From assembly GCA_026398615.1 (NCBI GenBank), contig JAPLSN010000042.1, positions 62,001 through 126,000 on the forward strand: 64,000 nucleotides of DNA, given 5' to 3'. Positions within the stretch are counted from its first letter, which is position 1. Every line of letters begins with the position of its first letter. Shown here piece by piece: positions 25,607 to 31,075 of the stretch. Under the pieces are notes generated by a model. That model saw only the letters and a program-made list of their open reading frames with translations. It was not told the origin of the DNA and did no database searches. This DNA is from Spirochaetota bacterium (lineage in GTDB: Bacteria; Spirochaetota; Spirochaetia; Treponematales; UBA12059). The position numbers and the translations under genes are program-made.

Positions 25607-26728
25607 TCAGGCGAACTTGTCGTAGAAGATATCCCTGGGGTCGATGCCGTTCTTCGTCATGACCTTGATGCAGGCATCGATCATGCCGGGGCTTCCGCAG
25701 AGATATCCTTCGCGCGGTTTTCCGGCACTTATCTTCGCGCTGAGATGGCTGTCGAGCACGTTCGTGATGAGCCCGATCTCGCCGTTCCATCCTTCCTCAG
25801 GTTTCGGCTCCGAGAGCGCCGGGACGAAATGGAAGCGGGGCCATTCCTTTTCGAGCTTCCTGAGCTCGTCGAGGTAGAACATGTCCCGCGTGCTCCTCGC
25901 GCCGAAGAAGAACCAGATTTCCTTCCCGGGAAACGAATCCCTGGCGCGCATGTCGTTGAACATGCTCTTGAATGGAGCCATGCCGGATCCCCCCGCGACG
26001 CATACCATCGTGGAGGGCGTGTCGTGGACCTGGAAATCTCCGAACGGCCCTATGAGCTGCACGACGTCGCCGGTCTTCATGAACTTGTGCACCCAGGTCG
26101 TGGCGATCCCGCCGGGTACCAGCCTGACCAGCAGCTCGACGTTCCCGGGATCCCCGGGAACGGAAGACATCGAATACGCGCGTTGCACGCTTTCTGTGAT
26201 GTCGCCATATTTCGGCACGGCCAGCTGTACGTACTGCCCCGGCATGAAGTCGATCGACGACGGGTTCCTGAGGTCGAAACGGACTTCCTTGATGTCGTAG
26301 GTGAGGTCGCGCACGCGCCCGACCGAGGCTTCGAAGCGCTTTATCGAGAACAGCGATTCCGGGATCTCGATCTCGATATCCTTCTTGACCTTGATCTGGC
26401 AGGCGAGGCGGATCTTCCGGCTCACTTCCTCCGCCGAGATGTAGGGCGTTTCGGTCGGGAGGTAGGGGCCGACGTCGCTTGTGACGACGCACTTGCATGC
26501 GCCGCACGAACCGCGGCCGCCGCACGCGGACGGCAGGAAAATCTCCTCGCCCGCGAGCGTTCCCAGGAGGGGGGAGCCGCCGCGGACCGGCAGTTTCTTC
26601 TTTCCCCCGTTGATCGTCACGTTTACCGTGCCGTAATCGTTCAGCTTCCCGTCCAGCAGCGAGATGACGAGCGCGAGGAAGGCGGAGAAGCCGGCTGTGG
26701 CCAGGGGGCCGACCAGGATGGGATGCAT
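25607..26728 (-). CDS. nqrF: Na+-translocating NADH:quinone oxidoreductase subunit F
   Basis: CGGRGSCGACKCVV plant-type 2Fe-2S ligands, QRAYSMSSVPGDPG, VAGGSGMAPFKSM, YLCGSPGMIDAC. Confidence 0.92.
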   Translation of the reverse strand: MHPILVGPLATAGFSAFLALVISLLDGKLNDYGTVNVTINGGKKKLPVRGGSPLLGTLAGEEIFLPSACGGRGSCGACKCVVTSDVGPYLPTETPYISAEEVSRKIRLACQIKVKKDIEIEIPESLFSIKRFEASVGRVRDLTYDIKEVRFDLRNPSSIDFMPGQYVQLAVPKYGDITESVQRAYSMSSVPGDPGNVELLVRLVPGGIATTWVHKFMKTGDVVQLIGPFGDFQVHDTPSTMVCVAGGSGMAPFKSMFNDMRARDSFPGKEIWFFFGARSTRDMFYLDELRKLEKEWPRFHFVPALSEPKPEEGWNGEIGLITNVLDSHLSAKISAGKPREGYLCGSPGMIDACIKVMTKNGIDPRDIFYDKFA

Positions 26729-26738
26729 CGCTGACCCC

Positions 26739-27338
26739 TTACTGGACGGCGATCATGCCGGAAAAGCCGATGAAGGCCATGGCCATGAACCCGATGACGA
26801 TGAGCGTGATACCGGTCCCCTTGAGTCCCGCGGGCACCGGGTTGTTCTCGATGCGCTTGCGGATGGCTGCGAGGAGCATGATCGCGAGCCACCAGCCGGC
26901 GCCGGCGCCGAAACCGAAGGCAACGGCCTGCAGGAAGCCGTAATTGCGGATCTGCATGAAAAGCACCGCGCCGAGCACCGCGCAGTTCACTGTGATGAGC
27001 GGAAGGAAGATGCCCAGCGACAGGTAGAGCGAGGGGGAATACCGGTCGATGACCATCTCGAGCATCTGGACGACTGCGGCGATGACGATGATGAAGATGA
27101 TGAAGGAGAGGTACTCGATCCCGAGCGGGATGACCAGGTACTGCAGCACCGTCCAGCATATGGCGCAGCAGATGCCGATGACGAGTGTAACGGCGAGCCC
27201 CAGGCCGAAGGAGCTTTTCCATTCCTTGGAGATCGCGATGAACGAGCAGGTTCCGAGGAAATTCGACAGGAGGATGTTGCTCGTCAGGATCGAGGCGAAG
27301 AACAGGACGATCGGGTTGATGTCCGAAAACGCGGGCAC
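26739..27338 (-). CDS. nqrE: NQR/RNF membrane subunit E (RnfA-like)
   Basis: LFFASILTSNILLSNFLGTCSFIAIS, ITVNCAVLGAVLFMQIRNY. Confidence 0.93.
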   Translation of the reverse strand: MPAFSDINPIVLFFASILTSNILLSNFLGTCSFIAISKEWKSSFGLGLAVTLVIGICCAICWTVLQYLVIPLGIEYLSFIIFIIVIAAVVQMLEMVIDRYSPSLYLSLGIFLPLITVNCAVLGAVLFMQIRNYGFLQAVAFGFGAGAGWWLAIMLLAAIRKRIENNPVPAGLKGTGITLIVIGFMAMAFIGFSGMIAVQ

Positions 27339-27348
27339 TGGATCCTCC

Positions 27349-27987
27349 TTATCGTGCGGCCGAGGGGGCTTGCCGCGGCTGCTTCCAAGCGGCCTTGCGT
27401 ATACCCAGGGACTTGGCCCACCAGGCGACGAGGGCGACCAGGAAGAACGCGCTGGGCGGCATGATCATGATGGTCATCGGAACGAAATTCGCGGGGGCGA
27501 CGCGGAGACCGAGCAGGGTCCCGAAGCCGAGGAGCTCCCGGACCACGGCGATCCCGACGAGTATGGCCGTGTATCCGAGTCCGTTGGCCAGGCCGTCGAT
27601 GAAGGACGCGACCGGCTTGTTGGCGGCAGCAAAGGCTTCGGCGCGCCCCATGAGGATGCAGTTGGTGATGATGAGCCCGACGTAGGGACCCAGTTGCTTC
27701 GAGGCTTCCGGCAGGTATGCCCTGAGGATGATGTCGACGATGATGACGTAGAACGAGATGACGAGCACCTGCATGATCATCCGCACCTTGCGCGGGATGA
27801 AATCCTTCATCAGCGAGAGGTTCCAGCTCGCGAAAGCCGTCGAGAAGGTCACGCCCATCGTCATGATGAAGGTATTGCGGAGCGAATTGGTGACGGCGAG
27901 GGTGGAGCAGATCCCGAGCACCTGGAAGAGGATCGGGTTGTTTGACCACAGGCCGTCCCTGATGATCGTCGAGTACTTGCCGCTCAT
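27349..27987 (-). CDS. nqrD: NQR/RNF membrane subunit D (RnfE-like)
   Basis: RDGLWSNNPILFQVLGICSTLAVTNSLRNTFIMTMGVTF, LIITNCILMGRAEAFA. Confidence 0.93.
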   Translation of the reverse strand: MSGKYSTIIRDGLWSNNPILFQVLGICSTLAVTNSLRNTFIMTMGVTFSTAFASWNLSLMKDFIPRKVRMIMQVLVISFYVIIVDIILRAYLPEASKQLGPYVGLIITNCILMGRAEAFAAANKPVASFIDGLANGLGYTAILVGIAVVRELLGFGTLLGLRVAPANFVPMTIMIMPPSAFFLVALVAWWAKSLGIRKAAWKQPRQAPSAAR

Positions 27988-28604
27988 TGGACGCCTCCCG
28001 GGAGTTTCCTGAGCTTCGCGATGCCGGAGTTGACGATGGCTTCCATGGCCTGGCTCGTCCTGCTTGCGCCGGTGATGCCGTCCAGCCTGGAATTTTCCGG
28101 GTCGGCGTCGCCGGTCCCCGCAGCCTCGGCCCCGGATGTGATAGATATTCCCTCAGGTCCGATGAGTTCACCGCGGAATTGCCGCTTGAACCATTGCTCA
28201 TCGATGCGGCCCCCGAGTCCGGGAGTTTCGTTCTGGCTCAGAACCTGTATGCCGTCGAGCCGGCTGGAATCCATGTCCATCGCCAGCATGATCTCGATGG
28301 TGCCCCAGAGGCCGGGGCCGGATACGAGCGCCGCGAGATGCCTTTCGCCATCGATGGCGGTCGAATAATATCGGTCGCTGCCTTCGCCCGAAACCGAAAG
28401 CCGCTCCGCATAGATGGTTTCGGCGTCCGTCCGGGCGGCATAGCCGATTCCCAGGGCGTCGAGCACGGCGCTCTGGGCGGCGAATCGCCGATTGGCTTCG
28501 ACACGGTCCTTGGTGAGTTCATTCGCGACCGCGAGCAGGGCCACGAAGAATGCGCAGACAAAAAAGGTGAACAGCACGACGTAGACCGTGGAATCCCTTT
28601 TCAT
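27984..28604 (-). CDS. nqrC: NQR subunit C (covalent FMN subunit, FMN-binding domain)
   Basis: N-terminal TM; NETPGLGGRI; flavinylation motif DGITGASRTS; start trimmed to MKRDSTVYVVLFTF. Confidence 0.9.
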   Translation of the reverse strand: MKRDSTVYVVLFTFFVCAFFVALLAVANELTKDRVEANRRFAAQSAVLDALGIGYAARTDAETIYAERLSVSGEGSDRYYSTAIDGERHLAALVSGPGLWGTIEIMLAMDMDSSRLDGIQVLSQNETPGLGGRIDEQWFKRQFRGELIGPEGISITSGAEAAGTGDADPENSRLDGITGASRTSQAMEAIVNSGIAKLRKLPGGVQ

Positions 28605-29536
28605 TTCGCCGCCTCCCCGGCCGGTTTCGCGGCGGCCCTTTTCGGTCCGACCAGTTCGTCGATCAGGCTTGCGAAGGTGTTGCCGATGAAAACCGCGAAG
28701 CTCGTGCCCTCGGGGAAGACGCTGAAGGTCCGGATGACGATCGCGCAGATTCCGATGAGGGTTCCGTACACGAACTGGGCCGCTTTCTTCTTCGGTGCGC
28801 TGACCGGGTCGGTTCCCATGAACACGGCCACGAAGAGGAAACTGCCGGAGAGGAGGCTTTCGACGGGGAGGGCTCCGGGAATCCCGGCCAGCCTGAGCGC
28901 GAGCGCGAGAAGCGATCCGGCCGCCAGCTCGGAGAGGATGATGCGCCAGCTCGCGGTTTTGCTCGCCACGAGGTAGATACCGGCGGCAAGGATGAGAAGA
29001 ACCGGGCTTTCGCCGATGGCTCCCGTGCGCAGTCCGAGGAGCAAGTCGGGGATGCTGGTCTGTCCTCCGGAACGCAGGATGCCAAGCGGGGTGGCGCCGG
29101 AATACGCGTCGAGCCTGCCGAAAAGGCTCCCGGCCGCCGTCCCGAAGGTTCCGAAGGGAACATAGGAACGGTTGAGGATCGTCGCGAAGGAGATGTAGAC
29201 GAACAGGCGCCCGGCGATCGCGGGGTTGAAGACGTTCCGTCCGAATCCCCCGAACACGGCCTTGGCCATGAAGACCCCGAACGCGGATCCGATCGCGACG
29301 ATCCACAGGGGGGCGGCCGGCGGCAGGGAGAGGGCGAAGAGCGCCGAGGTGACGAGGACGGCCTCGCTGACTTTTCCGGAACGTTTTCGCTCGAACAGCC
29401 ACTCGACCAGGATCCCGACGGCGAAGGAAACGACGACGACGAACAGCGCGCGCAAACCGTACATCCACAGCGACATGAGGAATATCGGGGCGATCGCGAT
29501 CAGGACACGTCGCATCATCGCTTGTTTCTGGAACAC
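28601..29536 (-). CDS. nqrB: NQR subunit B (RnfD-like, covalent FMN)
   Basis: GGFGRNVFNPAIAGRLF, flavinylation motif SGATPL, FMGTDPVSAPKKK; 311 aa. Confidence 0.9.
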   Translation of the reverse strand: MFQKQAMMRRVLIAIAPIFLMSLWMYGLRALFVVVVSFAVGILVEWLFERKRSGKVSEAVLVTSALFALSLPPAAPLWIVAIGSAFGVFMAKAVFGGFGRNVFNPAIAGRLFVYISFATILNRSYVPFGTFGTAAGSLFGRLDAYSGATPLGILRSGGQTSIPDLLLGLRTGAIGESPVLLILAAGIYLVASKTASWRIILSELAAGSLLALALRLAGIPGALPVESLLSGSFLFVAVFMGTDPVSAPKKKAAQFVYGTLIGICAIVIRTFSVFPEGTSFAVFIGNTFASLIDELVGPKRAAAKPAGEAAK

Positions 29537-29614: not shown

Positions 29615-30709
29615 TCAATGCAAATCGTTTCCCGTATCCGGCGGCCACCCGGCGACGAGGCAGAAATCGGGGCCCGAATCGTTGCGGCGGCGAAGATGCA
29701 TGGGGCCGCCCGAGCAATCGGACCAGTGCCGGCAGGCTGCGCACGGACCGCGCTTCAGCTGAGTCCGTTCGCGGAAGGCGGAGAATTCCCGTTCCCAAAC
29801 GGTACGAAGGCTCTCGAGCCGGATGTCGCCTTCGATGAAATCGTCGGCGTTGTTGGAGCAGCCGGAGATCCGGCCGTCCGAGAGCACTGACGCGATGTTG
29901 ATGCCCGAACGGCAGAAAAAGGGTTCGCGCCGGACACGCAGGTCGAGATCGAAGGGAAGGAACAATTCGCAGGAATAGGAGAGATTCAAGCCCTTTTTCG
30001 CGAACCGCGGGCGGGCGTCCCGGATAAAATCGAGCATGTCCCGTGTTTGACCGATTGAAAGGCACAACTCCGGCTCGGCGGCGGCTCGGCCCTTGGGAAA
30101 TATCCGGAACATGCGCCAGCTTTTCACGCCGAGACTCGCGAGGAGCTCGCCGGTTTCCTCGAGACGGTCCACGTTTGCGGGAAAGACGCAGGTAACGGCG
30201 TCATGGACGGGGATGGAAGACCCTGCGACCAGTCGGAGGGCCTTGATCGCGCGACGCCAGGAATCGGGATGGCGCCGCAATGCCGTGTGGGGGATTTCAG
30301 GTCCGTCCAAGGAAATCGTGATGCTGTAGAGGCCGACGGATTCAAGTCCAGCGATAACCCTTTCGTCAAGGGAGAACCCGTTCGTCACCATGCCCGCCCG
30401 CATGCCAAGCGACTTGATGTGCCCAAGCAGGGGGAAAAGCCCTTCGAACACCAGCGGTTCGCCCCCGGAGATGACGAAGACGACCCCGGGGCCGAAATCG
30501 TGCCGGACGTCATCGACGACCGTGATCCATTCGGCTGCCGACAATTCACCATCCGGACGCTTCGATGAACAATCCGACCCGCAATGCCGGCAGGACAGGT
30601 TGCATCGTTTCGTCACTTCGAGGAAGAGATAGCGAAGCTCCCGTTCGCGCCGTTCTCCGCTTACGTATGCACGCCAGAAAGCGCGCCTTAAGACGAGGTC
30701 CGGCCGCAT
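29615..30709 (-). CDS. radical SAM/SPASM-domain protein
   Basis: CNLSCRHC (CX3CX2C), ISGGEPLVF, SITISLDGP; C-terminal CRSGINIASVLSDGRISGCSNNADDFIEGDI...CAACRHWSDCSGG auxiliary cluster region; start trimmed. Confidence 0.9.
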   Translation of the reverse strand: MRPDLVLRRAFWRAYVSGERRERELRYLFLEVTKRCNLSCRHCGSDCSSKRPDGELSAAEWITVVDDVRHDFGPGVVFVISGGEPLVFEGLFPLLGHIKSLGMRAGMVTNGFSLDERVIAGLESVGLYSITISLDGPEIPHTALRRHPDSWRRAIKALRLVAGSSIPVHDAVTCVFPANVDRLEETGELLASLGVKSWRMFRIFPKGRAAAEPELCLSIGQTRDMLDFIRDARPRFAKKGLNLSYSCELFLPFDLDLRVRREPFFCRSGINIASVLSDGRISGCSNNADDFIEGDIRLESLRTVWEREFSAFRERTQLKRGPCAACRHWSDCSGGPMHLRRRNDSGPDFCLVAGWPPDTGNDLH

Positions 30710-30735
30710 GGCGGGATGCCGATCCGGGTACGACC

Positions 30736-30933
30736 CTAATCGGTCACCGATCCCGGTTCGACGGTCTTCACGCTGTCCGGAGCGGTTTGCCTGGCGTCCG
30801 TCGGAGGGGTATACCTGCCGTCCTGGTAGTACACGGGCGGGCCGTAACAAGCCGCGATCAACGCCGTAAGGCTGCCGGTGGCGATGAGCCTGAAAAGATA
30901 CTTCAACGCCAACTTTCCTGTAAGTCGCTTCAT
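30736..30933 (-). CDS. 65-aa lipoprotein upstream of the radical SAM gene (putative radical-SAM-associated lipoprotein)
   Basis: MKRLTGKLALKYLFRLIATGSLTALIAAC|YGPPVYYQDGRYTPPTDARQTAPDSVKTVEPGSVTD; lipobox LIAAC; 26 nt before the rSAM start, same strand. Confidence 0.75.
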   Translation of the reverse strand: MKRLTGKLALKYLFRLIATGSLTALIAACYGPPVYYQDGRYTPPTDARQTAPDSVKTVEPGSVTD

Positions 30934-31075
30934 GGATTTGATTCTAATGGAGGGACGCGGACGATTCAAGCGAATCCGGATCAAACAGCAGGCATCAATC
31001 CGGATCATGCCTTTCGACCGGTTCCGTATCGCCTCTCGCCTTGCCATTCCCCGCTCGCCGGGGTAGTATCCGCTC

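Follow-up and report, generated by a model that had tools for sequence, protein, structure and literature searches.

The splicease PlpXY excises tyramine at X-Tyr-Gly sequences; its natural sites are MYG and LYG, and LYGLP is present in its tag constructs (PMC10533398, which also describes a tetrazine assay). PlpX is assigned to the family IPR026482 (PMC11002830), and spliceotides inhibit proteases (PMC11117315; PMC10373908). The term "splicease-type" is used here as a label that is based on the kinship of enzymes and on the motif of their precursors, and PlpXY alone is experimentally proven among the cited literature. IPR026482 presumably corresponds to TIGR04103 (nif11-class maturase 3), in which case TIGR04103 is the family of PlpX itself. 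The survey of spliceases by Scott et al. 2022 reportedly speaks of "peptides and proteins" and may already include enzymes of the TIGR04133 type. A search of the accessible literature for TIGR04133 and TIGR04103 found no mention of them.

The rSAM/lipoprotein system of NCBI combines an enzyme of the family TIGR04133 (rSAM_w_lipo) with a protein of the family TIGR04134 (lipo_with_rSAM). The latter is described as a "radical SAM-associated putative lipoprotein", in agreement with the two-gene system named in an earlier note on the DNA analysed here. The same kind of pair is annotated by NCBI in Treponema saccharophilum and Parabacteroides distasonis. Because of the annotated Treponema pair, the earlier note goes too far in regarding the modification and function as undescribed in this lineage; other Spirochaetota also carry the family. 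The system already has a name in databases, and the element that is new to us is its mechanistic interpretation as a possible splicease, which is suggested by sequence comparison.

The gene pair and its enzyme

The window, a 64,000-nucleotide-long stretch of DNA from a Spirochaetota bacterium, contains on its minus strand a gene for a lipoprotein of 65 residues (positions 30736–30933), the presumed substrate, and 26 nt downstream of it a gene for a radical SAM/SPASM enzyme of 364 residues (29615–30709). Both open reading frames are present as the earlier note claimed, and both start with ATG. The lipoprotein has the sequence MKRLTGKLALKYLFRLIATGSLTALIAA up to the predicted signal peptidase cut and CYGPPVYYQDGRYTPPTDARQTAPDSVKTVEPGSVTD after it, and the mature part begins CYGPPVYYQDGRYTPP. 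Its signal peptide, identified from the sequence and from aligned signal peptides of homologues, comprises residues 1–28 (30850–30933) and ends in the lipobox IAA/C. The positive n-region, the hydrophobic core, the lipobox, and the profile match to homologous signal peptides characterize the protein as a predicted bacterial lipoprotein. The residues C-Y-G-P-P (30835–30849), which include the presumably lipidated Cys29 and a YGxP core, are the presumed site of modification, as indicated by the motif in partners of homologous enzymes and in splicease-type precursors.

A Pfam search with the 65-residue lipoprotein gave no match. A profile of CYG lipoproteins, made from 59 such proteins other than that of the window, was compared with 1155 stop-to-stop segments of the window, among which the small open reading frame is the sole significant match (E 5e-6, the next being 0.48). 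The GC content of its codon positions, 0.52/0.52/0.75, is coding-like. Therefore, the small open reading frame is more than a chance occurrence. A match to the consensus of sigma-70-like promoters, TTGAAT-17-TAGAAT (30941–30969, minus strand), ends 8 nt before the ATG of the lipoprotein gene, so the transcript is possibly leaderless.

The enzyme matches the Pfam families PF04055 (E 3e-18) and, with its SPASM domain, PF13186 (E 1e-5). Invariant alignment columns identify the radical SAM cluster motif Cys36-x3-Cys40-x2-Cys43, followed by Gly44 (30581–30604, minus strand), and, in the SPASM domain (29660–29914, minus strand), Cys266, Cys284, Cys323, Cys326, Cys332, Cys350, and His338. The AlphaFold model of the enzyme has a mean pLDDT of 94.2 and contains an N-terminal helix in place of an RRE. 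The solved folds that are closest to the model are those of SkfB, SuiB, BlsE, anSME, CteB, and PqqE, most of which modify peptides or proteins.

The best family for the enzyme is TIGR04133, with 307 bits and an E-value of 1.4e-91, as the earlier note had guessed; the next family scores 112 bits. However, the score is below the curated cut-off of 425 bits. The alignment extends from residue 12 to 344 of the enzyme and from position 10 to 339 of the profile, which is 330 of 350 positions, and includes the SPASM domain. In two trees the enzyme is placed inside the TIGR04133 clade, with supports of 100/99 and 100/100. Since it lies within the clade of the family despite its sub-cut-off score, the enzyme is a divergent branch of TIGR04133 rather than a stranger to it. 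The profile search proposed for both proteins gave a match only for the enzyme: the lipoprotein has no match to TIGR04134 (cut-off 39.8 bits) at E <= 10 or E <= 1, and some clear partners of other enzymes also score below that cut-off. The pair of the window is a divergent variant of the rSAM/lipoprotein system that is not called a member by the curated thresholds.

Conserved pairing with YGxP lipoproteins

A scan of species genomes identified 80 loci in Bacteroidota, Myxococcota/Deltaproteobacteria, Nitrospirota, Fibrobacterota, Spirochaetota, Bacillota, and other groups. The family, which the earlier note described as mainly from Bacteroidetes, also occurs in several other phyla, including further Spirochaetota. 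The distribution of TIGR04133-type enzymes is patchy, with strong matches in 15 of 296 genomes of the spirochaete phylum and 2 of 23 genomes of the family to which the window belongs; the closest homologues are 47–48% identical to the window enzyme.

A nearby small secreted protein with YG or a closely related motif accompanies 88 of 93 homologous enzymes (87 partners, and one more at locus L011). The partner is encoded upstream on the same strand in 79 of the 87 cases. YG is present in 84 partners and YGxP, the exact conserved form of the YG-P motif named earlier, in 64. The tyrosine is preceded by the lipidated cysteine in 60 of the 87 partners, by E in 11, M in 7, and L in 3, and by A, K, I, or P in the rest; the usual form is CYGxP at the lipidated cysteine, with proline usual at +3. 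The picking of partners favoured open reading frames bearing YG, so a control with displaced windows is the fair measure of the pairing: the upstream slot holds a secreted YGxP open reading frame in 47 of 76 enzymes, as opposed to 2 of 488 displaced windows. The pairing of enzyme and lipoprotein across phyla is general and well supported. Conservation of the small open reading frame beside homologous radical SAM genes, on which the earlier note had made its interpretation depend, is thus observed, in the form of small YG lipoproteins. The likely substrate within the Tyr/Pro-rich mature part is the single YGxP site rather than the tail in general; YTPP, also pointed out in the earlier note, has no consistent counterpart in homologues.

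The motif departs from YG in three partners, with AYMGPP or AYIGPP at loci L020 and L021 and CYAPGG at L014. L020 and L021 form a deep branch of the family, and their partners have Tyr-x-Gly-Pro in place of YGxP. A clear partner within reach was not found at loci L027, L036, L038, and L074, and in part at L040, where a candidate secreted protein of 261 residues with QYGAP and without a lipobox is encoded some 740 nt beyond the gene of the enzyme. At L077, LYGPP occurs upstream of the enzyme behind a membrane anchor that has no cysteine.

Most partners are long, and those scanned have a C-terminal carboxypeptidase-regulatory-like or Ig-like domain. Short partners, of at most 95 residues, account for 17 of the 87, that of the window included. 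This, together with the gap of 26 nt to the enzyme gene, makes it unlikely that the short lipoprotein is the product of a truncated gene. Locus L017 contains four short tandem lipoproteins (60–88 residues), mostly with YGP-type motifs, upstream of a single, divergent TIGR04133-like enzyme at position 1468. Arrays of several lipoproteins are also present at L088 and L094.

Clustering of the open reading frames that neighbour homologous enzymes identified no other conserved gene, and no conserved RRE, protease, or exporter among them. Likewise, there is no recurring small open reading frame and no PlpY-like match near homologous enzymes that could represent an RRE partner. Judged from the sequences of the paired genes, the radical SAM enzyme very probably modifies the lipoprotein.

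Kinship with splicease-type enzymes and the proposed reaction

When a canonical member of TIGR04133 is used as the query, the best plasmid match outside the family is a Nostoc "nif11-class maturase 3" (130 bits), followed by GDL maturases. A profile of the 93 enzymes of the family scores splicease-type enzymes at 214, 201, 180, 173, and 155 bits, and others at 157 (an unassigned Paenibacillus enzyme), 140 (MftC), 135 (NirJ), and 109 bits (PqqE). The TIGR04133 family and the splicease-type enzymes are nearest relatives with a support of 93/89 in a tree that includes 12 splicease-type sequences and 13 outgroups, but the support for the same grouping is 78/57 in a smaller set. Therefore, the placement of the family beside the splicease-type enzymes is favoured by the sequence trees but not settled. 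Gly44 is shared by 93 of 93 enzymes of the family and 26 of 26 splicease-type enzymes, and occurs in none of the 13 outgroups; for Trp198 the corresponding counts are 93/93, 26/26, and 2/13. The window enzyme scores 87.6 bits against TIGR04103, the cut-off of which is 725; by this comparison its relation to that family is one of a sister, not of a member.

The precursors of the relatives share the core motif. In the Nif11 precursor encoded next to the Nostoc enzyme, the C-terminus reads ALYGLPPELF, and precursors beside related splicease-type enzymes contain AYGVP (LAYGVP, in an NHLP precursor), AYGIARP, and MYGTG (VMYGTG, in a 35-residue peptide). Those of Myxococcota have DYGLPP, KYGIPP, IYGLPP, RYGLPP, VYGAPP, and VYGMP.

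On a plasmid of Agathobacter rectalis (L106, 2782–2889), an unannotated gene for a 35-residue peptide ending NLFGPVMYGTGVRM immediately precedes a splicease-type radical SAM gene; the peptide is likely to be an MYG precursor in a gut bacterium. The splicease-type loci L147 and L154 of Myxococcota each encode one precursor of 176–186 residues in which a repeat such as PPIAMRYGLRPP / PPIAMKYGLVRP occurs four times, and an open reading frame downstream at L151 has four YGAP/YGMP sites; it is possible that the products of these three loci are multi-site spliceotides. DUF1843 (GDL) peptides encoded beside splicease-type maturases (L107, 2138–2851; L111, 37–231) have LYA, MYA, PYG, or MYM near their N-termini, suggesting that they undergo a related Tyr-centred reaction.

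The earlier note proposed no chemistry; by the comparison made here, there is about an even chance that the reaction of the window enzyme is the excision of tyramine at the tyrosine of YGxP. In such a reaction, the enzyme would bind the prolipoprotein in the cytoplasm before export, with the signal peptide, or the region around it, as its guide; the signal peptide probably also serves as the leader for the enzyme. A tyramine equivalent would be removed from Tyr30, and Cys29 and Gly31 rejoined via a ketoamide. The N-terminal side of Cys29, at which signal peptidase II cuts, would be left untouched. Export, lipidation of Cys29 by Lgt, and its exposure as the N-terminus by Lsp would come after splicing. 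This would yield a lipid-anchored protein that starts with a ketoamide-bearing beta-homologue of cysteine. We know of no precedent for a splicing site whose residue X is lipidated afterwards and directly follows the signal peptidase II cut. By analogy to spliceotides, the electrophile could act on the cell surface by binding proteases of the serine or cysteine type, although this function is rather unlikely.

The pattern of the partner motif, in which Y and G are nearly fixed, X is variable, and P is usual at +3, fits a splicease. In some homologues, EYGTP or MYGPP is located further in, at a site separate from the lipidated cysteine, which argues that the enzyme reads YGxP itself. That the TIGR04133 enzymes as a whole are spliceases, forming a widespread branch specialised for lipoproteins, is slightly more doubtful than the reaction at the window. 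The missing RRE partner, the missing SPASM cysteine, and the partners without YG at L014, L020, and L021 are real differences that weaken the interpretation as splicing. Another point against it is that the peptides of the related GDL maturases have YA and YM in addition to YG.

The alternative that the tyrosine of YGxP is modified by other chemistry, such as a C–C or C–O cross-link, hydroxylation, or epimerisation, can be entertained tentatively. A cross-link might be a three-residue cyclophane from Tyr to residue x, or might join Tyr to Pro, and the product of such chemistry would be a lipoprotein with a stiffened N-terminus. SPASM enzymes catalyse many Tyr/Trp-centred cross-links, the closest solved folds are those from SkfB to PqqE given above, and the lost SPASM cysteine together with the invariant His338 near its place hints that the chemistry differs in some way from that of PlpX. 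By contrast, the middle glycine of the motif is near-invariant whereas the third residue varies freely, which suits XYG splicing better than it suits ring formation with the third residue, and the nearest enzymes are of the splicease type and share the YGxP motif.

It is very unlikely that the enzyme acts on a small molecule or heme and is paired with the lipoprotein by chance or for regulation. Radical SAM families of heme d1 and heme b are among the next best profiles; however, they score about 98–108 bits, compared with 307 for TIGR04133, NirJ and PqqE are outside in the trees, and the lipoprotein is the only neighbour conserved across phyla. A substrate of the heme or MoaA type was rejected, as NirJ and AhbD have cut-offs of 500 bits and more and MoaA models score poorly, so the clustering with enzymes of non-peptide substrates against which the earlier note had cautioned is not observed. 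Hardly any weight can be given to the idea that the two genes serve in the maturation or assembly of the neighbouring Na+-NQR complex. The pair precedes nqrB by 78 nt in the same orientation, and NQR or Rnf genes lie no more than about 8 kb from the enzyme at three unrelated loci (L071, L065, and L024), slightly above chance expectation. However, 22 of the 23 genomes in the bacterial family of the window have a match to NqrB, whereas only 2 of the 23 have the enzyme, no radical SAM gene was found beside NqrB in 19 loci of other genomes examined, and the link was therefore rejected as incidental. In addition, the one other member of that bacterial family (L022/L031) has a convergent hslO-like gene, as read from its sequence, past the enzyme, and there is no NQR gene among the recurrent neighbours. 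The Na+-NQR-type operon nqrBCDEF (25607–29536, minus strand) is downstream of the system and not a part of it; it starts with nqrB, and no nqrA was seen beside it.

If the enzyme is indeed a splicease, an orphan family present in several phyla would acquire a specific, testable reaction, with a change of −135.08 Da at one tyrosine. Lipoproteins of the cell envelope, including those of gut bacteria, would carry a backbone-edited electrophilic residue: a reactive and uncommon beta-amino acid, located either at the lipid anchor or next to it. Such an enzyme would also be an RRE-free splicease for protein labelling.

Comparison with named systems

The GDL-motif system, which consists of TIGR03913 maturases and DUF1843 peptides, belongs to the same enzyme clade, and its maturase is 48% identical to the nif11_3 enzyme. 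Near their N-termini, its peptides have a tyrosine with G, A, or M as the next residue; unlike the protein of the window, they have no lipobox.

The nearest relatives of the enzyme are those of the PlpXY splicease type. The core of their precursors is XYG, often in the form YGxP(P), and the corresponding residues of the window are C-Y-G. The substrates of PlpXY have a Nif11 or NHLP leader, whereas the lipoprotein has a Sec signal peptide. Spliceases use the truncated RRE protein PlpY, and the window enzyme has no RRE domain. The splicease-type enzymes compared have a fuller set of SPASM cysteines, whereas those of the TIGR04133 type lack the cysteine of the CX3C step and have the invariant His338 near its place.

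Unlike the lipoproteins of the NCBI rSAM/lipoprotein system, that of the window has no C-terminal carboxypeptidase-regulatory-like (Ig-like) domain. It likewise has YGxP near the mature N-terminus, as CYGPP, and the pair shares with that system the two-gene layout in which the lipoprotein is encoded directly upstream of the enzyme.
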